This document shows positions 6,093 through 20,486 of a DNA stretch of 49,482 bases, in pieces. The position numbers were made by a program, and so were the translations under genes. Below the pieces are notes generated by a model, which saw only the letters and a program-made list of their open reading frames with translations, was not told where the DNA came from and ran no database searches. Origin of the DNA: Acidimicrobiales bacterium (GTDB lineage: Bacteria; Actinomycetota; Acidimicrobiia; Acidimicrobiales; GCA-2861595); contig JAUJNQ010000001.1 in NCBI GenBank assembly GCA_030448025.1, positions 149,776 to 199,257 on the forward strand, written 5' to 3'. Numbering within the stretch: position 1 is the first letter of the stretch; each line of letters opens with the position of its first letter.

Positions 6093-7596
6093 TCAGGGTG
6101 CGGAAGTTGTTCGTCGTCGTGTCGGTGGTCCGGTGCCAGGTCGTGCGGGTGCGTCGGGTGTCTGCCCCGGCCCAGTAGTGGTAGGTGCGGGCTCGGCGCT
6201 GATGAGGGCGCCGATCTTGGTGGCGTTGTTGGCCAGTACGCCCCAGGCGCACCACGTCTGGGCCCGCCGATGCCATCGGTCAGGCTGCGCCGCCAGCCGT
6301 GGTCGCGCTTGAGCGAGGAGATGCGTGCTTCCGATCCGGTCCGCCACTTGACGAGCTTGCGGAAGCTGCGACGGCCCTGCACCTCTCGTCGGGCTGCGCC
6401 CGGCTTGCCCTTGCGGGGGATCACCACCTTCTTGACGCCCATCGCCTGCAGCCCGGCGTCGACGCCCGCTTCGCCGTAGCCGCGATCGGCGGTGACGGCC
6501 CGGGGCACCTTTGCGAAGCGGGCCGCGATGCGGGCCATGGCGGGCACCAGCATTGGAGCGTCGGGCGGGTTGCCCTTGACCACGTGGTGGTCACCACGAT
6601 CCCGTCGGCGTTGTCCACCACCTGGGCCTTGTAGCCGAACTCCACCGGCTTGCCCAGGCGCCCCTTGGCGATGGGCCGGGCGTCGGTGTCGTGCAGGGAC
6701 ACGACCCGGGTGGAGCCGTCGGGCACCTCGCCGCCGAGTCGGACCCGGGTCTGGGCCGCGATCGCCTCCAGCACCTCGGCGCCTCTCTCCAGCTCGGCCA
6801 CCAGCGCCGCTGCCTTGGGCGACGCCCCCCGACCGGCCCGGGCTAGGCCCCGCCGGGCGTTGGCGGCCAGGTGGCGGGCGTCGGTGACCGCGGTCTCGGC
6901 GATGCCCGCCATCTCGGCGGTGATGGCCTTGACCTCGGCCTTGGCGTCGTCGTTGCGCCGGCGCAGCCAGGCGGCGATGGCATGGGCCCGGCGGCGCACC
7001 GATCGGGTGCGGTCCCGGGCTGTGGTGCGGGTGGCCAGCCCGCAGTCCTTGATCTTCTTGGTGAGCCGGGCCAGCTTGGCCACGCCCTTGGCCAACAGCC
7101 CTGAGTCGGTGGGATAGGAGACGTTGGCCTCCACCACCGTGGTGTCGGCCCGAAGCTTGTCGAGGCGGATCACTTTGGCCTCCGCCGCCTTGGCCAACAG
7201 GGCCTCGTTGAGCCCGGCCACCGCCTTCTCGCCACAGCGGGACGTGATCTTCATGAGCGTGGTCGGGTGCGGAGCCGACGTGCCGAGCGGCACCCGGCAG
7301 AACCGCCTCCAGGCCAGGGAGTCGGCCACCTCGGCGCACAGCGGCTCGAAACCGAGCTTGTAGCGGTACTTCAAGAACATCATGCGCAGATAGGTCTCCA
7401 TCGGGATCGACGGCCGGCCTATCACCGGGTCGAAGAAGGCCCGGAAGGGCTCGAAGAACACCGGGTCGTCCAAGAGGACGTCGATCTGAGCCAAGTCCCC
7501 GGGCAGGCCCATGAGGCATTCGGGGATCAGCGACTCCCACAGGGTGGGCTGGGGGCTTACGGTACGTAGCACGATGGCCTCGACTCCTTCTCGCAC
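6093..7596 (-). pseudogene. IS5-like DDE transposase with two frameshifts
   Basis: The N-terminal part is a DUF772-type domain (FFDPVIGRPSIPMETYLRMM), followed by a long helical region and a DDE domain. The three acidic residues are visible but in different frames: the first Asp in LRADTTVVEAN, the second in TADRGYGEAG, and the Glu in RTGSEARISSLKR. Reading 7596 to 6093 needs two compensating shifts. One is near 6588-6592, where VVDHHVVKGN is out of phase with the upstream frame. The other is near 6265-6272, in a G run before the conserved C-terminal WCAWGVLANNATK. Each looks like loss of one base. With both shifts unrepaired no full-length transposase is made. Confidence 0.85.
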
Positions 7597-8506: not shown

Positions 8507-9928
8507 TCAGAACGGGCCGGTGAGGTAGAGCGAGCGCCTGGCGGCGCGGGCCACGGTGGGATGGGCGGGACCGGTGGCGATGGCCCGCAGCACGCGCGTG
8601 GCATCGGGATGACCTGATCGGGCGACCACCCCGACGGCGGCGACCTGTTCGTCGGGCGGGCCCAGGCCGGCCAGGAGATCTACCACCTCGTCGCGGTCGG
8701 CGTCGGCGCCCAGCGCCAGCGCTTCCACCAGGGCGGCTGCCGTGTCCTCAGGAGAGATGGCGTCGGGTGCCTCGAGGCCCTGGTTCACCAGCCACACGCT
8801 GGCGAGGGGCCGCAGCCTGGGGTGCTCCCGCAGTCGGCGAACAGCCGGCTCCCCAGCCGGAGCCAGCATGGAGAAGGCCTCCAGGGCCATGGCGGCAAGG
8901 GCCGGCTCCGGCAGCTCCAGCACGGCCCGGCACAACTCGTCGGCTGCCTCCTCGGGCCGGCGGGCCTGGCACCAGCGGGCCAGTTGCTCGAAGGCTTCGT
9001 CCTCTCCGAGCTCGCCGCAGACCTCGAGGAGCGACAGGGCGTCCTCCTCGACCAGGTCGAGGTCGTCCTCGTCCTCGTCGCCGAGACCGGCGATCACATC
9101 GACCAAGCCGGCCAGGACACCGCCCAACGGGGTGAGGGTGATCTCGTCTCCGTCTCGGGCCACGACGCCGGCGTCGGCCAGCTGGGCAACGAGGCCCTCG
9201 ATCACCACGTCGACGCGATGGCGCTCCCGCTCGTTGTCCTTGCGGTAGCCGTACTGGCCGGCGACGTCCTCCCAGGCCGACTCCTGCACCAAGCCGAGGG
9301 CGACGGGTTGGCCGGCTCCGGCCAGGGCGACCAGCAGGCCGGGGACGCTGCCGTCGAGCATCTCGACATAGCCCGGCCGCCAGCCTTCCTGGAAGCCGCC
9401 GAGCACACCGTTCTCCAGCAGAGCGAAGGCAACCTTCAGCCAGGCGGTGAGCGGGTCGGTCTCGAGCGCTTCGCCAAGCGGTCCGGGCAGGAGGCGCTGC
9501 CCTCGCACGGCCAGGAGCTCGGCCGACACCGCCCACCGGAGAGCGTGGGCCACGTCAGGCAGGTCGCCCATGCTGCGGACCTCGCCGTCGACCGTATCGC
9601 GGGTACCCAGCACGGCGACAAGCTCCCTTGCGTCGGCCAGCTTCAGGTTCCCCGCCTGGGTGGCGGGGCGGCCCTTGCCGACGAAGGCGAGCAACCGGCG
9701 AAAGCGAGCGACCGCCGGCACCTCCCGGACTTCCTGGACCAGGGCAGCCGCCTCGGCTGCCTCCTGCTCACCGGAGTCTTCCAGCAGCTCGTGCAGCGGG
9801 GTGTCGAGCACCCGCTCGATCTCGGCGACGGCCACCTTGAGCTCGGTCTCCGGCTCTGGCTGCGGCGCCCTCCGAACGTGACTCTCCACTCCACGGGCCG
9901 GGCCCTTGCGTCGGTGTCGACCGGTCAT
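8507..9928 (-). CDS. Uncharacterised 473-aa helical protein, divergent from jetA
   Basis: I do not recognise a named family. The start is ATG at 9928. The N-terminus is basic and probably disordered (residues 1-30), followed by alternating amphipathic helices. A central stretch has a winged-helix-like feel (GLVAQLADAGVVARDGDEITLTPLG without the middle residues). An acidic linker is rich in Asp and Glu (DEDEDDLDLVEEDALS). The C-terminal 180 residues read like HEAT-type helical pairs (AVGVVARSGHPDATRVLRAI). It has no transmembrane segment. It is transcribed away from the Wadjet operon across a 184-bp divergent region. A defence link is possible only by position. Confidence 0.7.
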   Translation of the reverse strand: MTGRHRRKGPARGVESHVRRAPQPEPETELKVAVAEIERVLDTPLHELLEDSGEQEAAEAAALVQEVREVPAVARFRRLLAFVGKGRPATQAGNLKLADARELVAVLGTRDTVDGEVRSMGDLPDVAHALRWAVSAELLAVRGQRLLPGPLGEALETDPLTAWLKVAFALLENGVLGGFQEGWRPGYVEMLDGSVPGLLVALAGAGQPVALGLVQESAWEDVAGQYGYRKDNERERHRVDVVIEGLVAQLADAGVVARDGDEITLTPLGGVLAGLVDVIAGLGDEDEDDLDLVEEDALSLLEVCGELGEDEAFEQLARWCQARRPEEAADELCRAVLELPEPALAAMALEAFSMLAPAGEPAVRRLREHPRLRPLASVWLVNQGLEAPDAISPEDTAAALVEALALGADADRDEVVDLLAGLGPPDEQVAAVGVVARSGHPDATRVLRAIATGPAHPTVARAARRSLYLTGPF

Positions 9929-10046: not shown

Positions 10047-10112
10047 CAAAGTGACCACGTGGATGTAATTACGCCCTTGTGCTCTGTCACACTTACCTGG
10101 TTCGATGGGGGC

Positions 10113-11726
10113 GTGCAGAGCGGGGTGCGATCGTGGCGGCGGTTGTCGGCCGACCTCTTCCGTTTCACCACCACCGACCTGCGGGAGCTGCACATGGCGG
10201 TGATGACCGCCTTCGAGGAGTCGGCCGTGGTCCAGCCCGCCCTCCGGTTCGAGGAGGTCCGCCACGGCCTGAGCCGCCTGGGCTGGGACGAGCCTCTCGA
10301 CGACGACCACCTCTCCCACACCCTGGGCGCCCTGGTGGGGTGGGGCCTGCTCGACGTCACCCAGGATCACGCCGCCCACTACGCCACCCCCGAGGAGTTC
10401 GAGCGCCGCAACCTGCAGTGGTCGCTCACCGCCGAGGGCCAGGCCGCCATCGGTGGCGTGCTGCACGCCGTGGCCGAGCTCCGCCGGGCCGTGAGCCTGC
10501 AGCCGGCGGTGCTCGACGCCATCGCCGACGGCCTGGTCGACCTGCACCGGCTCCTGACCCTGCCGGTGGCCAACGCCGCGTCCGACAGGTCGGACGACCC
10601 CGCCGCCGCGGACTCTGGAGGTAGCCACGCGGGTCGCGTCTCGACCACGCTGACGGCCGTAGAGGGCCACCTCGAGTCCCTCGTGGCCAGTGTGCGGGCG
10701 TTCAACACCCACCTCCAGCGCCTGCTCCGCGACGACGCCACCGCCGACCACGTGTTCCTCGACGTGAAGCGCCGAACCATCACCTACCTCGAGGACTACA
10801 TCGCCGGCGTCGAGCGACCGGCCCGGCGGGTAGCTGTCGCGGCCAAGAAGCTCGAGCGCGACGTGGGCGTGGCCGTGTTGCACGACCGTGCCCTGGCCGG
10901 CGCCAACCTGGCGCCCATGGCCGGGGGCGACCCGGCGCCCGCGTGGCTCGAGGAGCGGGCCCGGCGGTGGGCCGCCCTGTTGGCATGGTTCGCCCCCGAG
11001 TCGGGCGAGGCCAAGATCACCTCCCTGGTCGCTGTCGGCCGCCAGGCCATCATCCAGCTGCTCCGGGTGCTGGAGCGCCGCTTCGAGGCTCGCCGCCGGT
11101 CGGCGTCGGTGGTCGAGGACTTCCGTGCCCTGGCCGGCTGGTTCTCGGCCGCCATCAGCGAGGAGGAGGCCCACCGCCTGTTCAACGCCGCCTTCGGCCT
11201 CTGGCCCGCCCGCCATGCCCACCTCCTGCAGGACGACGAGGAGGCGCTGCCCGCCACCACCAGCTGGCTCGAAGCGCGCCCGGTGGAGGTGGCACCCGCC
11301 CTGCGCACCTCGGGCACGCTCACCAACCGGGGCCGGCCCCGCCCCATCGGTGACCCCTCGGTGGTCCGGGCCCGCCGCCAGCGCGAGCAGGCCGAGGCGC
11401 TCGCTCGCCACCACCGGCTCCGGAGGGCGCTGGCCACCGACGGCTCGGTGCCGTTGTCGAGCTTCGGGCGCCTCGACGCCACCGCCTTCGCCGAGTTGCT
11501 GGCGCTGCTGTCGGAGGCCCTGGCCGCCGTGCCTTCCGGTGACGGCGCCCGGCGGGCTCTGAGCGCGGACGGCCAGGTGGAAGTGGTCCTTGTCCCGCCC
11601 TCGCCGGGGGCTTCTCCCGTGCGGTTGTCCACCGAGGCGGGCATGCTGACGGCGCCCGACTTCGGGATACGCATCGATCTGGTGGCCGTGCCCGCCGGCG
11701 CGCAGCAGGAGGCCTCCAGTGCCTGA
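10113..11726 (+). CDS. jetA: Wadjet JetA (TIGR02677/DUF2397 family)
   Basis: A kleisin-like subunit of an SMC complex that blocks plasmids. The N-terminal block (SADLFRFTTTDLRELHMAVM, then a winged-helix-like segment to about residue 120) and the long helical middle are typical of the DUF2397 family. The length of about 537 residues fits. Starts at 10059 and 10125 are also in frame. I chose GTG at 10113 because family members begin shortly before the SADL block. No strong ribosome site decides it. The gene ends inside the start of jetB with an 8-bp overlap. By family knowledge JetA bridges the JetC heads, like MukF. Confidence 0.9.
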   Translation: MQSGVRSWRRLSADLFRFTTTDLRELHMAVMTAFEESAVVQPALRFEEVRHGLSRLGWDEPLDDDHLSHTLGALVGWGLLDVTQDHAAHYATPEEFERRNLQWSLTAEGQAAIGGVLHAVAELRRAVSLQPAVLDAIADGLVDLHRLLTLPVANAASDRSDDPAAADSGGSHAGRVSTTLTAVEGHLESLVASVRAFNTHLQRLLRDDATADHVFLDVKRRTITYLEDYIAGVERPARRVAVAAKKLERDVGVAVLHDRALAGANLAPMAGGDPAPAWLEERARRWAALLAWFAPESGEAKITSLVAVGRQAIIQLLRVLERRFEARRRSASVVEDFRALAGWFSAAISEEEAHRLFNAAFGLWPARHAHLLQDDEEALPATTSWLEARPVEVAPALRTSGTLTNRGRPRPIGDPSVVRARRQREQAEALARHHRLRRALATDGSVPLSSFGRLDATAFAELLALLSEALAAVPSGDGARRALSADGQVEVVLVPPSPGASPVRLSTEAGMLTAPDFGIRIDLVAVPAGAQQEASSA

Positions 11727-13005
11727 CCTCCTCGCCGGCCCCGCCGGGGAGGTCGGCGAGCGGTCCCTGGCCGTTCGCACCCTCCTCGGGACCCCGTTCC
11801 TGGTGGCCGACGCCGACCCCGATGGCTTCGCCGCAGTCGCCCGCCACCGGAGCTGGCTCATCGAGTGGTTCGAGGACACGTGCGGCTGGGCCCTCGCGGT
11901 CGACCTCCCCGGCCGCTTTGCCCGCCTCACCAAGCGCTCGGCTCGTCCCGACCCCACCCGTCCGGCTCGGCGCAGCCGGGGCCAGAAGTTGCCTTTCGAC
12001 CGTCGCCGCTACGAGCTGCTGGCCCGTCTGTGCGCCGAGCTGGCCACCCACCAGGTGACCACCATCGGCATCCTGGCCGGCGCCCTGGCCGGCGAGTCGG
12101 CCGGGGCCTTCGACTCCAGCCTTCAGCGTGAGCGGGCCGCCTTCGTGGACGCCTTCCGCCAGCTGGGCGCCTGGGGCGTCGTCCGCTTCGAGGGAGGCGA
12201 CCTCGACGGGTACGTGAGCGACCGGCAGGGCAACGCCCTGGTGTTCGTGGACAGCGGCCGGGTTCACCGCCTGCTCGCCCCTTCGCTGGCGCCCTGCCGG
12301 GTCGAAGCCGACACCACCGCCCAGGCCGTCGACCGGTTGGCGGCCGAACCCCGCTACGGGCCAGGCGATGACGTCGACGATGAAGACGAGGTCGAAGACT
12401 TTGGCGTCGATGACCGCCACCGGCCCGGCGACGAGCGGCGCCGCCGGCGGGCCCGCCACGCCCTCGCCCGCCGCCTGCTCGACGACCCGGTCGTCCACGT
12501 GGACGAGCTGGACGAGGAGGAGCGGGCCTACCTCGCCTCACCATCGGGCCGCCGCTGGCTTCGCGACCGGGTGGGCGAGGCCGGCTTGGTCCTCGAGGAG
12601 CGGACCGAGGGGCTGCTGGCCGTGGACCCCGACGCCGTGGCCACCGACCAGCGGTTCCCGGCCCCCAACAGCACGGTGCGCCAGGTCGCCCTCATCCTCG
12701 TGGACCACCTGGTCACCGGAGTGGCGGGATCCCGCGTCCTCGCTGAGCGGAGCAGCGCCGAGTTGGCTTCCCAAGTGGCCAGGTTGCTCGGCGACCACCC
12801 GAACTGGGCCCGCGACTACCAGGATGACGACGGCGCGGCGCGCCTCGTTGCCTCCGCCCTCGACCTGCTGGCCTCCCTGGGCCTGGTGGTACTGGAGCGC
12901 ACGCCCGGCGGCGACCCCGACGGCGTCTCCGGCGGTGTTGTGGCCCGCCCCCGCCCGGCCCTGGCCCGCTACGCCGTCGCCCCGCTGGAGGGGGCCCTGC
13001 TGTGA
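11719..13005 (+). CDS. jetB: Wadjet JetB (TIGR02678/DUF2398 family)
   Basis: A 428-residue protein of the DUF2398 family, the MukE-like partner that binds the kleisin JetA. Features include an N-terminal winged-helix region (residues 1-60), the RRRYELLARLCAELA block near residue 95, a basic segment (ERRRRRARHALARRLL), and a C-terminal winged-helix repeat (VRQVALILVDHLV). A long acidic stretch (GDDVDDEDEVEDFGVDD) lies in the middle. GTG at 11719 overlaps jetA by 8 bases. Its TGA is shared with the first GTG of the 15-bp repeat array that separates it from jetC. Confidence 0.9.
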   Translation: MPDLLAGPAGEVGERSLAVRTLLGTPFLVADADPDGFAAVARHRSWLIEWFEDTCGWALAVDLPGRFARLTKRSARPDPTRPARRSRGQKLPFDRRRYELLARLCAELATHQVTTIGILAGALAGESAGAFDSSLQRERAAFVDAFRQLGAWGVVRFEGGDLDGYVSDRQGNALVFVDSGRVHRLLAPSLAPCRVEADTTAQAVDRLAAEPRYGPGDDVDDEDEVEDFGVDDRHRPGDERRRRRARHALARRLLDDPVVHVDELDEEERAYLASPSGRRWLRDRVGEAGLVLEERTEGLLAVDPDAVATDQRFPAPNSTVRQVALILVDHLVTGVAGSRVLAERSSAELASQVARLLGDHPNWARDYQDDDGAARLVASALDLLASLGLVVLERTPGGDPDGVSGGVVARPRPALARYAVAPLEGALL

Positions 13006-13104
13006 AGCGACTCGCCGTCAAGGAACTCGCTGTGAAGCGACTCGCCGTCAAGGAACTCGCTGTGAAGGACTCGCTGTGAAGGAACTCGCTGTGAAGGAGC
13101 CGTC
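13002..13104 (+). repeat. 15-bp tandem repeat array carrying repeated ribosome sites before jetC
   Basis: Seven head-to-tail units fill the whole jetB-jetC gap: GTGAAGCGACTCGCC, GTCAAGGAACTCGCT, the same pair again, then GTGAAGGACTCGCT (14 bp, one base lost), GTGAAGGAACTCGCT, and GTGAAGGAGCCGTC leading into ATG. The GTG at 13002 overlaps the jetB TGA. Units with AAGGA place a Shine-Dalgarno core about seven bases before the next GTG. The last unit gives AAGGAG five bases before the jetC ATG. Read from 13002 the array encodes VKRLA/VKELA pentads for 25 codons and stops at 13079 because of the 14-bp unit. A second reading starts at 13076 and stops at 13108, overlapping the jetC ATG. Confidence 0.95.
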
Positions 13105-16100: not shown

Positions 16101-17262
16101 GGTCGGCGTCGGCCCCGGTGAGAGAGCTGGCGAGAGCGCCGCGGGCAGCGCCAGCGCGGTGCTCGACGCCGCCCGCGCCGTGGTCTCGGCGCTGGGGGAG
16201 GGCGCGGCGTCACGGTCCGGAGGGCCCGCCTCACGGGCCGCAGGTCCGGGGTCACGGGCCGAGCACGACCTGCGCTCGCGCGAGGCCCGCCTCCAGGAGG
16301 CCCTCCACCAGGCCAAACAGTCCCTGGGGGGTGGCATCGAACTGGTCCTCGACCAGGCGGACGGTGGGTGGTGGGTGCTACGTGCCGTCAGCGACGGTCT
16401 TCGTCGCCGGGTGGGTGAGCTGGCCGGCGGCCTCGCCGATTCCCTGGCCACTGCACGTGAGGAGCTGCTCGACGAGGAGCACCGCCTCTTCGACGAGACC
16501 CTCACCGGCAGCGTGCGCCGGGCCGTGGCCGAGCGGATCCGACGGTCCAACGCCCTGGTCGACGGCATCAACGCCGAGCTCGCTGAGGTGCGCACTGCGG
16601 CCGCGGGCGTGGGCGTGCGCCTGCGGTGGGAGGTGCACCCCGATCAGCCCGACGCCGTGAAGGCGGCCCGGCGCCTGTTGCTCAAGGACCCCGCCGACCT
16701 GGGCGAGGAGGAGCGGGCCTCGCTATACAGCTTCTTCCGAGCCCGCCTCGACCACGCCCGCCAGGCCCTGGACGGCACGGCCGGCTGGGAGGAGCGCCTG
16801 CGCGACGCCCTCGACTACCGCCGTTGGCACCGCTTCGCCCTCGAGGTGGCCCATCGCGACTGGGACGGCTTCGTCCCCGCTACCGCCAACCGACTGGCCC
16901 GCCTGTCCACCGGCGAGCGCTCGGTGGCCCTGCACCTGCCCATGCTGGCCTCAGTCGCTGCCCACTACGACGGCTTGGGCAGTCCCGGCGCTCCATCGCG
17001 CTGCCCGCGCCTCATTCTCCTCGACGAGCTCTTCGCCGGCGTCGACGTGGCCAACCGGGGCCAGCTGTTCGGGCTGTTCGTCACCTGGGACCTCGACGCC
17101 GTGGTCACCAGCGACCACGAGTGGTGCGCCTACGCCAGCCTCGATGGCATCGCCATCCACCACCTGCACGCCGCCGAACCCGGCGAGCCCGTCACCACCT
17201 CGCGCTTCGTGTGGGATGGCAGGCAGCGGCGGGCCGCCCCCTTGGCCCTGGTGGGCGGATGA
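13105..17262 (+). CDS. jetC: Wadjet JetC SMC-type ATPase (TIGR02680 family)
   Basis: A 1385-residue SMC/MukB-like ATPase, the motor of the complex. The Walker A motif GANGSGKS is at about residues 49-56 and is preceded by the usual WRYAEEELTF strand. The ABC signature LSTGERSVALHLPM starts at about residue 1267, and Walker B LILLDELFAGVD at about 1303. The middle 1000 residues are coiled coil rich in Arg, Glu and Ala, with a globular hinge-like part around residues 590-730. A Ser/Arg/Gly-rich linker from a 21-bp tandem repeat sits near residue 1036. The ATG start has an AAGGAG ribosome site supplied by the last unit of the upstream repeat array. The gene is intact and of normal family length. 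Confidence 0.95.
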   Translation: MTATAGTTATTARLGRGQRWQPVRAGLVNVWRYAEEELTFHQGRVLLRGANGSGKSMALELLFPFLLDANAQPGRLSSAAKSRGGLFERLISGLEGRDRVGFLWAEFARHGEMGEQTFTVGVRLRASSATRKVDYAWFTTTLAVGRGLELFDEHRIPLSRAGLDEALTGAGSGTVHSGPDDYRRTVRTTLFAGCDERQYDAAINTLLALRREKISQDLNPEKLSNVLGASLPPLDEYDIAEVAEGFEKLERRKDELEHLEADLHQVRRLGRRQRDYARAVMAGVASRVRAATTRRDDVTRRERQAAEALAGAQAEVTRVESDDAAADRRTAELRAEVDALKSLDAYRAGGQIELLRGEAHRAERRAVEEQEAVLARRHEVGGREEALGERRQEKEDAAAAVGRAGAELVAAGDAAGAMAVVEEAAAAPVDEAETLLTAWTEGRRRQLVEVRHALGVLARAIDGRDRAERALEEERSALAGASGRRDEAEESVSVAVADYTADISAWAGSCTTLAATTLRAALPSPPDDPAAVVTAVGEVAVAARSAMAVAADRLAAAVAESKEREAGLRAERDELAAGRVGEPDVPAWRSPRSEERAGAPLWRLVDVADGVGAAGLEGVEAALLASGLLDAWVTPDGRATLPAEADVVVDRDDQSGAGGAGRSLADALVPAELDAPPVPAPVVAGLLAAIGLVDSVQPGRTAGPAIGLDGTFRIGPLVGRGAVHAAAFVGAAAQEQRRARRLAELDEALAELVGARAGLERRLDDLRRDQAALEAEVAALPSGEPIERADRALAVAEQRVADARARVDRSERARSEAEASARAAQRDLMQLAATSGLPTEAGGLEELDGRLRAVERLAPAWAQRRRHLAGSERVRRRAEDDVARAGAELERAEARHAAAAREHQELAARLAALEETVGAEYREVVGRIRGAEGEVTQLDEQRLSHGRRLRELAGEMGRLAADLDKAEVERQASEAERDQANVAFQAAVNDGLAADAELPVGVGPGERAGESAAGSASAVLDAARAVVSALGEGAASRSGGPASRAAGPGSRAEHDLRSREARLQEALHQAKQSLGGGIELVLDQADGGWWVLRAVSDGLRRRVGELAGGLADSLATAREELLDEEHRLFDETLTGSVRRAVAERIRRSNALVDGINAELAEVRTAAAGVGVRLRWEVHPDQPDAVKAARRLLLKDPADLGEEERASLYSFFRARLDHARQALDGTAGWEERLRDALDYRRWHRFALEVAHRDWDGFVPATANRLARLSTGERSVALHLPMLASVAAHYDGLGSPGAPSRCPRLILLDELFAGVDVANRGQLFGLFVTWDLDAVVTSDHEWCAYASLDGIAIHHLHAAEPGEPVTTSRFVWDGRQRRAAPLALVGG
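16211..16260 (+). repeat. 21-bp imperfect tandem repeat inside jetC
   Basis: Two 21-bp units beginning CACGGTCCGG and CACGGGCCGC, and a partial third (CACGGGCC), encode an in-frame Ser-Arg-Gly-Pro-Ala linker within the JetC coiled coil. Because the unit is a multiple of three, copy changes would keep the frame. Confidence 0.7.
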
Positions 17263-17278
17263 GGTTGACGGGCAGGCG

Positions 17279-18562
17279 GTGACGAGCGTGCCGGGTGTGT
17301 CATCGGCTGCCGCTCGGGCGGCCCGGCCCGAGCTGGCGGCGCTGTGGGACGAGCTGGCACGCCGCATGAGCGCGTCCGACCGCCCGGTCACAGCGGTGAC
17401 CCTGCGGGGCCTCGACGACCGCCAGCGAGCGGGCGTCGCCGACCTTCTGGGGAGGGAGCGGCTGGTTCCCCCCACGTGCCGGGTGCCCATCGGTGCCGTG
17501 GTCGCTGCGCTCGGACTGGGCCAGCAGGGCTCGGACCGCGATGGCTGGTACCAGGACGCGGCGCTGCGTGGCCTGGTGGAGGAGCTGCGAGGACCGATCG
17601 TGAACAGGACAGAGGCCCGCCGCCGCCAGCAGGCCGAGCGGGTGGCGCTGTGGTCCTGGCTCGAGGTCGAAGCAGCCCGGCTCGGTGTTCCGGGCTGGGC
17701 CGCCGGGTTGCGGGCCGCTGGGGTCCCGGGCAGCGACGTGGGGCGCCACCGGAGCCGGCTTGAGGCGGCGGTGGCCGTGGTCGACGGGGTCCTGGAGGAG
17801 TCGGACAACATGGCGCTTCCCGTCCTGGCCAACGCCGTGCTCGGCGACCCTCATGCTCTGGACCCGGGGACGGCTCTTGCGCCGCTGGTGCTCGGGGCCC
17901 TGGCCGAGCGGTTTGGGCTGGGCCCGCCGCGATCGGCCGAGGAGGCACGGGAGGTTTGGGCCGCGGCGGGCGTGGTGGCCGACGAGCTGTCGTCCAAGGT
18001 GCTCGTGCTGGGCCTTGGGTGTGATCGTTCGGACTCGCCTCTCGGGGCAGCCCTGGGCGCCTTGGCCGAAGGTGGGGAGCCGGCCGTCGTCACGCTCTCC
18101 CAGCTCCGACGCTGGCCTGTGCACCTGGCCGGAACCGCCCGGGAGGTGAGGGTGGTCGAGAACCCCTCGGTGGTAGCCGAGGCGGCGCGAGCTGGTAGAG
18201 GACGGGCAGCCGAGGGGGCGCCGCTGGTGTGCACGTCGGGGTGGCCCAACGTGGCCGTGATGACCCTACTTCGTCAGCTCGCGTCAACGGGAGCGCGGCT
18301 GCGCTGCCATGCCGACTTCGACCCGCCGGGGATCCTCATCGTCCGTCACCTGGTGGCCCGGCTGGGGGCCGAGCCGTGGGGGATGGGCGAGGCCGAGTAC
18401 CTCTCGGGCGCAGGCCAGGCCCGGGTCACCTTTGCCGGCTCAGTGGCCGACACCCCCTGGGATCCCGGCCTGGCTCGGGCCATGCGCGCCCGGCGTCGAG
18501 CCGTGTTCGAGGAGGACGTGAGGGGCACCCTCCTCGGCTTGGACAACCGGGGGAGAACGTAA
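17279..18562 (+). CDS. jetD: Wadjet JetD Toprim-type nuclease (TIGR02679, DUF3323/DUF2399)
   Basis: A 427-residue DNA-cleaving subunit, related to topoisomerase VI A/Spo11. The N-terminal two thirds match the DUF3323-type arm. The C-terminal Toprim domain shows the metal-binding residues: Glu294 in VVENPSVV and the DxD pair Asp346/Asp348 in CHADFDPPG, with the conserved LVCTSGWPN between them. All residues expected for nicking or cutting DNA are present. I chose GTG at 17279, 16 bp after jetC stops. An in-frame reading extends back into jetC but overlaps it without family support. The gene closes the four-gene Wadjet set. Confidence 0.92.
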   Translation: MTSVPGVSSAAARAARPELAALWDELARRMSASDRPVTAVTLRGLDDRQRAGVADLLGRERLVPPTCRVPIGAVVAALGLGQQGSDRDGWYQDAALRGLVEELRGPIVNRTEARRRQQAERVALWSWLEVEAARLGVPGWAAGLRAAGVPGSDVGRHRSRLEAAVAVVDGVLEESDNMALPVLANAVLGDPHALDPGTALAPLVLGALAERFGLGPPRSAEEAREVWAAAGVVADELSSKVLVLGLGCDRSDSPLGAALGALAEGGEPAVVTLSQLRRWPVHLAGTAREVRVVENPSVVAEAARAGRGRAAEGAPLVCTSGWPNVAVMTLLRQLASTGARLRCHADFDPPGILIVRHLVARLGAEPWGMGEAEYLSGAGQARVTFAGSVADTPWDPGLARAMRARRRAVFEEDVRGTLLGLDNRGRT

Positions 18563-18591: not shown

Positions 18592-19038
18592 ATGCGCTGC
18601 TGGACGCCGGAACCCGATGACACGCACCTTCTGGACTGGTGGTTGCCCCTGGTGCGAGTGGCGCGCCGAGCCCTCGACGAAGAGGTGCCTTGGCTCATCG
18701 TGCTCGACGAGTGGGCGTTGGCCTTCCGGGTCGAGCGCCCGGGGCGGCCGGATGTCTGGGTCTACGTGCACGACCGGAGCCGTCGCGAGTTGTGCGTTGA
18801 TCACACCGGTCAGCCGTACCGGTTCATCGCCAACTCGCGCGGCCCGTCCCCGGGGCGGTTCAAGGAGATCGAGATCCGCTCCGCCGTATGGCGGGCAGGT
18901 CTGCCCGACGTCAGCGACGGCGTCTGGTTCGAACGACCCGTCTGCCCTTTCCACCCGCCCGACCGGTACGAGCCGCTCGCCGATGACGACGAGCAGTTCG
19001 AGGACCGGCCGGGCCTACACCTGGTGAGGCAGCCATGA
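18592..19038 (+). CDS. Uncharacterised 148-aa protein in the Wadjet operon
   Basis: I do not recognise this protein. It starts at ATG 18592, 29 bp after jetD, and ends in an ATGA overlap with the DUF2786 gene, so it is almost certainly cotranscribed with jetABCD. It is soluble, rich in Trp, Asp and Arg, with segments such as DDTHLLDWWLPLVRVARRAL and ERPGRPDVWVYVHDRSRREL. The pattern suggests an alpha/beta fold with several beta strands in the middle and an acidic tail. No catalytic motif is evident. Its position suggests a Wadjet accessory, or a helper of the DUF2786 protein. Confidence 0.75.
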   Translation: MRCWTPEPDDTHLLDWWLPLVRVARRALDEEVPWLIVLDEWALAFRVERPGRPDVWVYVHDRSRRELCVDHTGQPYRFIANSRGPSPGRFKEIEIRSAVWRAGLPDVSDGVWFERPVCPFHPPDRYEPLADDDEQFEDRPGLHLVRQP

Positions 19039-20486
19039 GCATCAACAACCGCCAGCGCCGGCGGGCCAAGAAGCACAAGCGCCAGAGGGACCGACGCGAC
19101 GCGGCCCAGAGGGACCAGACACGACAGAGAGACCAGCCGGCCCGGGGCGCTTCGAGCGACCAGCGCCCGGAACAGCCAGACCCCCGCACCCATGGCCGCG
19201 ACTGCTTCGGGGAGGCAAACCCCAGCCCCGGCCCTCGATGGCCCGGCGGGAGGAGGAGCGTCCCCGGCGATGAGGTGGTGCGGGCGACGGTGCTGGCCGC
19301 GGCCGAGGCGTTCCAGCTGGGTCCCGGGCCCGCCTACCAATCACGGCTGGAGGCAGTGCGGGTCCTGGATGCCCGGGCCGGTCGTCCCTCCGTCGATCGT
19401 GCGCTGGCCTGGTGGGTGGAGCGCGGCCTCGACAAGGCGTGGACCTCGGGCTGGCAACCGGCCGACGTGCTCCGGATGCTCCGCCGAAGGCTGAGCCCGG
19501 CCCACGCCGACGCTGTGGCGTCGTCCGTGGCCGAGAGCGGGGCTCGCCGGCCCGAAGCCGCCACCGACCAGCGGTGGGCGGGCCAGGTGGAGGCCATCCG
19601 CCGTGACCTCGGGTCCAGGTCTCCCCGTCCGCTGGGTCACCACCTGGCGCTAGCCGTGGAGGCGGTATCGGTGCTGCTTCGCCTGCCGCCCCTTCCGCGC
19701 CTGGGTGCCACCACCAGGGGTCCCGCCAACGGGCGGACCCGCGCCGGCGGGGATGGGTCGGGCGCCATGCTCGAGCGGGTGCGAGCCCTGCTGGCCAAGG
19801 CCGAGTCCACCACCTTCCCCGAAGAGGCCGAGGCCCTGAGCGCCAAGGCCCAGGAGCTGATGGCCCGCCACGCCATCGACGAGGCCGTGCTCGACGCCGG
19901 GCGCACCGGCGGGCCGGGCGGCGTGGTGGGCTGGCGCATCGGTGTCGACGACCCATACGCCTCGGCCAAGTCGCTCCTCCTCGACCGCATCGCCTCGGCC
20001 AACCGCTGCAGCGCCGTCTGGTGCAAGAACATCGGCTTGAGCACTGTGTTCGGGGTCCCATCCGACCTGGAGATGGTCGAGCTCCTCTTCACCTCGCTCT
20101 TGGTGCAGGGCACCGACGCCATGCTGCATTCCGGCAGTTCCATCGACCGCTCCGGTCGGTCGCGTACCCGCTCCTTCCGCCAATCATTCCTGGTCGCCTA
20201 TGCCGAACGTATCGGTGAGCGCCTGTCGGCCACGGCGGCGCAGGTCGTGGCCGAGGGGGCCGAGCGCTACGGCGACGGCCTCCTCCCCATGCTGGCCAGC
20301 CGGGAGGAGGCGGTCGAGAAGGAGGTGCAAACCGTCTTCCCCACTCTGGTCACGAAGGGCACCGCGGTCAGCAACTACTCGGGCTACGTGGCGGGCCGGG
20401 CCGCGGCCGAGATGGCGTCCTTGGCCGTGGGCGGTGAGGTCACTGCCAGCCCGATGGAGGCAGGAGACGAGGCGATCAGAGGATGA
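19035..20486 (+). CDS. DUF2786-domain protein
   Basis: A 483-residue protein. It has a very basic N-terminus (residues 1-45, many Arg/Lys), a helical middle (about 75-200), and the DUF2786 motif at about residues 247-275 (RALLAKAESTTFPEEAEALS, then AQELMARHAID). A conserved C-terminal domain follows (LVAYAERIGERLSATAAQVV; SNYSGYVAGRAAAEM). The function of DUF2786 is not established. Proteins of this kind occur in actinobacteria and phages. The ATG overlaps the stop of the 148-aa gene (ATGA). It is the last gene of the apparent six-gene Wadjet transcription unit. Confidence 0.85.
   Translation: MSINNRQRRRAKKHKRQRDRRDAAQRDQTRQRDQPARGASSDQRPEQPDPRTHGRDCFGEANPSPGPRWPGGRRSVPGDEVVRATVLAAAEAFQLGPGPAYQSRLEAVRVLDARAGRPSVDRALAWWVERGLDKAWTSGWQPADVLRMLRRRLSPAHADAVASSVAESGARRPEAATDQRWAGQVEAIRRDLGSRSPRPLGHHLALAVEAVSVLLRLPPLPRLGATTRGPANGRTRAGGDGSGAMLERVRALLAKAESTTFPEEAEALSAKAQELMARHAIDEAVLDAGRTGGPGGVVGWRIGVDDPYASAKSLLLDRIASANRCSAVWCKNIGLSTVFGVPSDLEMVELLFTSLLVQGTDAMLHSGSSIDRSGRSRTRSFRQSFLVAYAERIGERLSATAAQVVAEGAERYGDGLLPMLASREEAVEKEVQTVFPTLVTKGTAVSNYSGYVAGRAAAEMASLAVGGEVTASPMEAGDEAIRG

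Follow-up and report, generated by a model that had tools for sequence, protein, structure and literature searches.

The stretch of DNA analysed here, a window of 49,482 nucleotides from the 2.7 Mb genome of an Acidimicrobiales bacterium (G000), carries two genes directly behind a Wadjet operon, which raises the question of whether these genes extend the system or only lie next to it. The operon itself encodes a complete type II Wadjet system, a bacterial defence against circular plasmid DNA: jetA, jetB, jetC and jetD are contiguous on one strand in that order, all four products exceed the NCBIfam cut-offs, and their best PADLOC versions are JetA2, JetB2, JetC2 and JetD2. The type II kleisin gene jetA (TIGR02677/DUF2397) occupies 10113..11726 on the plus strand and scores 322.5 bits against a cut-off of 165.85, its start having been picked by a crude gene caller in an open frame that could begin at 10059. 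It is followed on the plus strand by jetB (TIGR02678/DUF2398; 11719..13005; 219 bits, cut-off 124.65), by jetC, encoding the SMC-like ATPase (TIGR02680; 13105..17262; 814.6 bits, cut-off 462.85) with its Walker B region (Pfam SbcC_Walker_B, 64.3 bits, cut-off 27), and by the nuclease-subunit gene jetD (TIGR02679, with DUF3323 and DUF2399; 17144..18562; 248 bits, cut-off 196). The true start of jetD is probably nearer to 17366, the start picked by the gene caller; the TIGR02679 match begins at residue 80 of the frame from 17144.

Behind the jetD stop codon at 18562, a gap of 29 bp leads to an ORF of 148 aa belonging to no known family (18592..19038, plus strand), which overlaps as ATGA at 19035–19038 with a gene of 483 aa containing DUF2786 (19035..20486, plus strand). 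Between 17000 and 22000 three terminator-like sites were found, all on the minus strand and none on the plus strand. The layout described by the initial annotation, with its short gap, its overlap, its common strand and its lack of a visible terminator, was thus confirmed from the sequence. Tandem 15-nt repeats (repeat family D1) were also observed at 12999–13102, covering the end of jetB and the gap between jetB and jetC. Upstream of the operon, a transposase gene (DUF772; 6421–7512, minus strand) lies about 2.5 kb from jetA, and a gene for a 460-aa protein (8507–9889), divergent from jetA, has no Pfam match and a single relative, on another contig of the genome G003; when this flanking gene was sought for an empty-site comparison with G001, of the same genus, it was found only in G003.

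The initial annotation had proposed that the two appended genes recur as a pair beside jetABCD and define an extended Wadjet variant. This proposal failed for the pair. The 148-aa protein matched nothing in NCBIfam, PADLOC or PHROG, and its only match in Pfam was below the cut-off, to an unrelated animal family. A first search gave matches at E 0.01 in 13 of 99 genomes, four of them besides that of the window below 1e-10, and a profile of six sequences found relatives in 12 of the 298 genomes of the order. In the 11 other genomes no relative lies near JetD or DUF2786, as judged by comparing their places and by tblastn of the fetched loci, which found neither. Three scanned neighbourhoods placed the relatives beside metabolic genes (an FAD-binding oxidase, an amidohydrolase and a PhoD phosphatase), and no such ORF separates jetD from the DUF2786 gene in G082, where the two are 1 bp apart. 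Because the relatives adjoin ordinary genes, and Wadjet in the window alone, the pair was rejected as a module. The AlphaFold2 model of the 148-aa protein has a mean pLDDT of 70 and no Foldseek match at E 0.001; the best rows of a second-look fold comparison include cystatin-like chains (Z 3.7–5.2). The ORF is most likely a passenger, which may have been inserted later between jetD and the DUF2786 gene.

The DUF2786 half of the proposal fared better. JetD was found in 35 of the 298 genomes of the order by TIGR02679 and in 44 of 397 by the JetD profile; among these 44 genomes, DUF2786 lies near the operon in five (that of the window, G003, G082, G117 and G191) and near no Wadjet operon in 39. 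In a sample of the phylum, JetD occurred in 36 of 396 genomes, including that of the window; 18 of the 35 others possess a DUF2786 gene, which lies near the operon only in G518. Counting both sets, five genomes beyond that of the window have DUF2786 no more than 10 kb from a type II Wadjet operon, in four arrangements. In G082 it follows jetABCD on the same strand, 1 bp after jetD, as the fifth gene of a sister operon; in G117 it is tail-to-tail with Wadjet, with an overlap of 9 bp; in G191 it precedes jetA on the same strand by about 246 bp; in G518 it likewise precedes jetA on the same strand, at about 1.2 kb, with small genes in between, among them a MazEF-like pair (PemK/MazF gene); and in G003 it is 4.4 kb downstream of jetD, the two being separated by three helicase pieces. 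These pieces (Helicase_C and the N- and C-terminal parts of UvrD; L083 11636–14782) resemble a decayed helicase island. A JetD alignment scan of genome contigs gave 17 loci, with DUF2786 only at L149, whose contig equals that of G117 in length and gene layout. G584, where a DUF2786 gene and an isolated JetD-domain fragment are about 17 kb apart and the stretch examined has no other Jet gene, was not counted as linked. A second group of JetD loci of the same order (L268 2627–10615 and L274 1850–10171) is arranged jetC–jetA–jetB–jetD where whole, and not jetABCD.

Whole-protein relatives of the DUF2786 protein occur in 111 of the 298 genomes of the order, mostly as stand-alone genes. Homologues found mostly without Wadjet, the observation that the initial annotation had named as speaking against its proposal, are the rule for the 148-aa ORF and for DUF2786 alike when each is taken singly. 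The settings of the DUF2786 relatives are often housekeeping ones, such as thiG–thiH, leuC–leuD and penicillin-binding-protein (PBP) genes, named by eye from their sequences. DUF2786 is an ordinary, widespread chromosomal gene of these actinobacteria that came to lie beside type II Wadjet several separate times. The genome of the window contains a second copy on contig C7 (about 235.2–236.3 kb; L207 7220–8307), adjoining apparent molybdate ABC transporter genes and split between two frames; the split may reflect either a broken gene or an error in the sequence.

The protein encoded in the window matches PF10979 (DUF2786) at residues 245–283 with 61.8 bits against a cut-off of 23.9 and phrog_421 at residues 245–464 with E 5.3e-31, while DUF7168 (PF23771) reaches 23.1 bits, just below its cut-off of 25.5. 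Its AlphaFold2 model, built from an alignment of 28 of 31 referenced sequences, has a mean pLDDT of 85 and consists of a basic helix (residues 3–33), a helical domain (79–214), the two long DUF2786 helices (240–289), a β-α-β-β-α core (298–366) and C-terminal helices. The model had no Foldseek match in the PDB at E 0.001, and sequence searches of the PDB with the 148-aa and DUF2786 families gave nothing below E 0.1. Among the many weak rows of the second-look comparison are KH domains, with Z of 3.5–4.2 and an r.m.s.d. of 2.4–5.8 over 68–98 residues, values which by the tool's own warning may mean only a common arrangement; the fold of these rows has the β-α-β-β-α order of the core. KH domains feature a GxxG loop, and GxxG is absent from the β1–β2 stretch (residues 303–330) both of this protein and of the consensus of 28 relatives; the structure prediction weakly suggests a KH-like core. 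Predicted structures of phage proteins match the model with E down to 6e-9, and short DUF2786 proteins are carried by phages and plasmids; on the Streptomyces plasmid pMDJK44.2 (L282 6974–9577), the gene after a short DUF2786 gene encodes a ParB N-terminal domain. From the anatomy of the model, the weak KH rows and the matches to phage structures, we infer that nucleic-acid binding through the basic helix and a possible KH-like core is plausible. The very basic N-terminus from which nucleic-acid contact had been suggested is real, with 14 Lys/Arg and four Asp/Glu in the first 35 residues, but it is not peculiar to this gene: most relatives start with MGxxNRxRRxxK, which makes the basic tail a trait of the whole family and hence no evidence of a role in Wadjet.

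The linked DUF2786 genes are polyphyletic in a tree of 31 of 32 rows (L068 was lost to a motif filter). Those of G000, G003, G005 and G082 group together (support 100/99, and 98/94 in a smaller tree); G005, from the window's own family, has its DUF2786 gene and a different Wadjet on separate contigs, and G082 comes from another family, the resident copies of which (G033, G239 and G117) form a group of their own. In the tree of concatenated JetA–D, built from gene-called proteins and including L151 without JetD, the Wadjets of G000 and G082 are sisters (clade support 100/100), with JetA–D 64% identical compared with about 50% to other Acidimicrobiia, and the data do not reject that their DUF2786 genes are sisters as well (p-AU 0.355). 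Since the Wadjets are sisters and the DUF2786 gene of G082 groups with the family of the window, jetABCD–DUF2786 looks like a five-gene unit that moved between families, which would explain G000 and G082 best. The history of G117 is different. Its linked DUF2786 gene is the resident, vertically inherited copy: in G239 the gene is neighboured by a PBP gene and a small Cys-rich gene, and in G117 both of these share its contig at a distance of 17.8 kb, as read on contig C6 (contig C74 ends before the DUF2786 site). It follows that here Wadjet came to a resident DUF2786 gene.

Two tests bear on whether the linkage exceeds chance. In a census of neighbours at 61 Wadjet loci with 579 called genes, DUF2786 was the commonest non-Jet family, at six loci, followed by two broad enzyme superfamilies (five loci each) and MazF (four); the census left out L090, which is the same place as L130, and L149, L150 and L152, copies of loci already included. 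The MazF-like toxin family was seen near L099, L129, L188 and L199. No DUF2786 was found in 17 further Wadjet loci, giving six of 78; for this set 18 of 19 fetched regions were searched (L267 was too short for the length filter), one being the extension of G117 and some being JetD fragments. The linkage counts are lower bounds, because the GC-frame gene caller is crude and contig ends truncate many of the loci. When genes were placed uniformly in the 36 genomes that possess both, with the window excluded, 0.31 linked cases were expected within 10 kb and five were seen (P 1.4e-5), and within 1.5 kb 0.06 were expected and four were seen (P 4.4e-7). The linkage exceeds this naive chance model, but accessory genes that cluster could produce it too, and against a tenfold denser null chance is not rejected (P 0.19). 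A pure coincidence of a common gene with a common defence system in compact genomes would fit the frequencies of both in the order and the outcome under the inflated density; it is poorly compatible with the cases within 1.5 kb and with the first place of DUF2786 in the census, and we consider it very unlikely. The idea that DUF2786 is simply a gene of defence islands is weakened by a PADLOC scan at E 1e-10 around 15 DUF2786 genes not linked to Wadjet, which covered 129 of the 131 proteins within 6 kb and yielded one clear methyltransferase and a few generic matches: unlinked copies are rarely near defence genes. DUF2786 alone is thus modestly supported as a sporadic companion of type II Wadjet.

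What such companionship means is more finely balanced. We tentatively prefer, at somewhat less than even confidence, to read the window as a type II Wadjet operon to which DUF2786 was appended as a fifth gene and optional accessory, the 148-aa ORF being a later insertion; the DUF2786 gene would be co-expressed with JetABCD, and a nucleic-acid-binding product could help JetABCD to engage, or to spare, particular DNA. Against an accessory role count the facts that most type II Wadjet loci lack DUF2786 and that Wadjet is distant from most DUF2786 genes, the polyphyly of the linked copies, the resident copy of G117, the denser null and the weak fold matches. Several of these observations fit the quite possible alternative that DUF2786 is a neighbour only, the flanks of resident copies being permissive spots for incoming genes and the unit of G000 and G082 having travelled together by linkage. 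G117 favours it, with Wadjet at the 3′ end of a resident DUF2786 gene whose PBP neighbour, adjacent in G239, is 17.8 kb off on the other side; the polyphyly of the linked copies also speaks for it, as do toxin genes at similar places, a MazF-like gene starting 4 bp after DUF2786 in G033 and the MazEF-like pair of G518 lying between DUF2786 and jetA. It is countered by the lack of a single target site, Wadjet lying 5′ of DUF2786 in G000 and G082 but 3′ of it in G117, G191 and G518, and by the scarcity of PADLOC matches around the unlinked copies. It is improbable, in our estimate, that the protein is instead a regulator or brake, restraining JetABCD, for example to protect circular DNA of the host, or controlling transcription of the operon. 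The same-strand position upstream of jetA in G191 and G518, the putative nucleic-acid-binding anatomy and the short proteins of phages and plasmids would suit such a role, but most type II loci manage without the gene and no regulator-type DNA-binding motif was recognised in the protein. Taken together, the functional roles, helper or brake, stand about level with the readings as neighbour or chance; an optional nucleic-acid-binding accessory is our best guess as to what DUF2786 provides.

No described function for DUF2786 was found in the literature searched, where DUF7168 is not mentioned, and within it the papers mentioning DUF2786, PMC10433963 among them, do not overlap with those on Wadjet. 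DUF2786 is widespread in actinobacterial chromosomes, in plasmids and in many phages, and a link to Wadjet, a defined machine against plasmids, would for the first time suggest a role that can be tested. The same link would show that type II Wadjet, described in a 2023 review (PMC10586767) as less studied than type I, can have optional parts. In its boldest and rather unlikely form, DUF2786 would be an optional, nucleic-acid-binding fifth component that type II Wadjet recruited on several occasions and that alters which DNA is cut by JetABCD; the resident stand-alone gene would then be a chromosomal partner usable by Wadjet in trans, and the short copies of phages and plasmids could be counter-factors. 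If the association is merely neighbourly, it is a caution against defining a system by short gaps behind jetD on the same strand.

Compared with known systems, the DUF2786 protein weakly resembles KH domains and secretin N-domains, in fold only, through the β-α-β-β-α order of residues 298–366, but the Z scores are too low for a claimed relation and GxxG is missing. With the PF10979/phrog_421 proteins of actinobacteria and phages it shares profile matches and predicted structure, whereas the chromosomal form adds the basic N-terminal helix and the helical middle domain, and the copy in the window adjoins Wadjet. Unlike JetA–D, it is matched by no PADLOC model. The operon in the window has the same four components as type II Wadjet (JetABCD), in the same order and above curated cut-offs, and differs from it in having two additional genes on the same strand 3′ of jetD.
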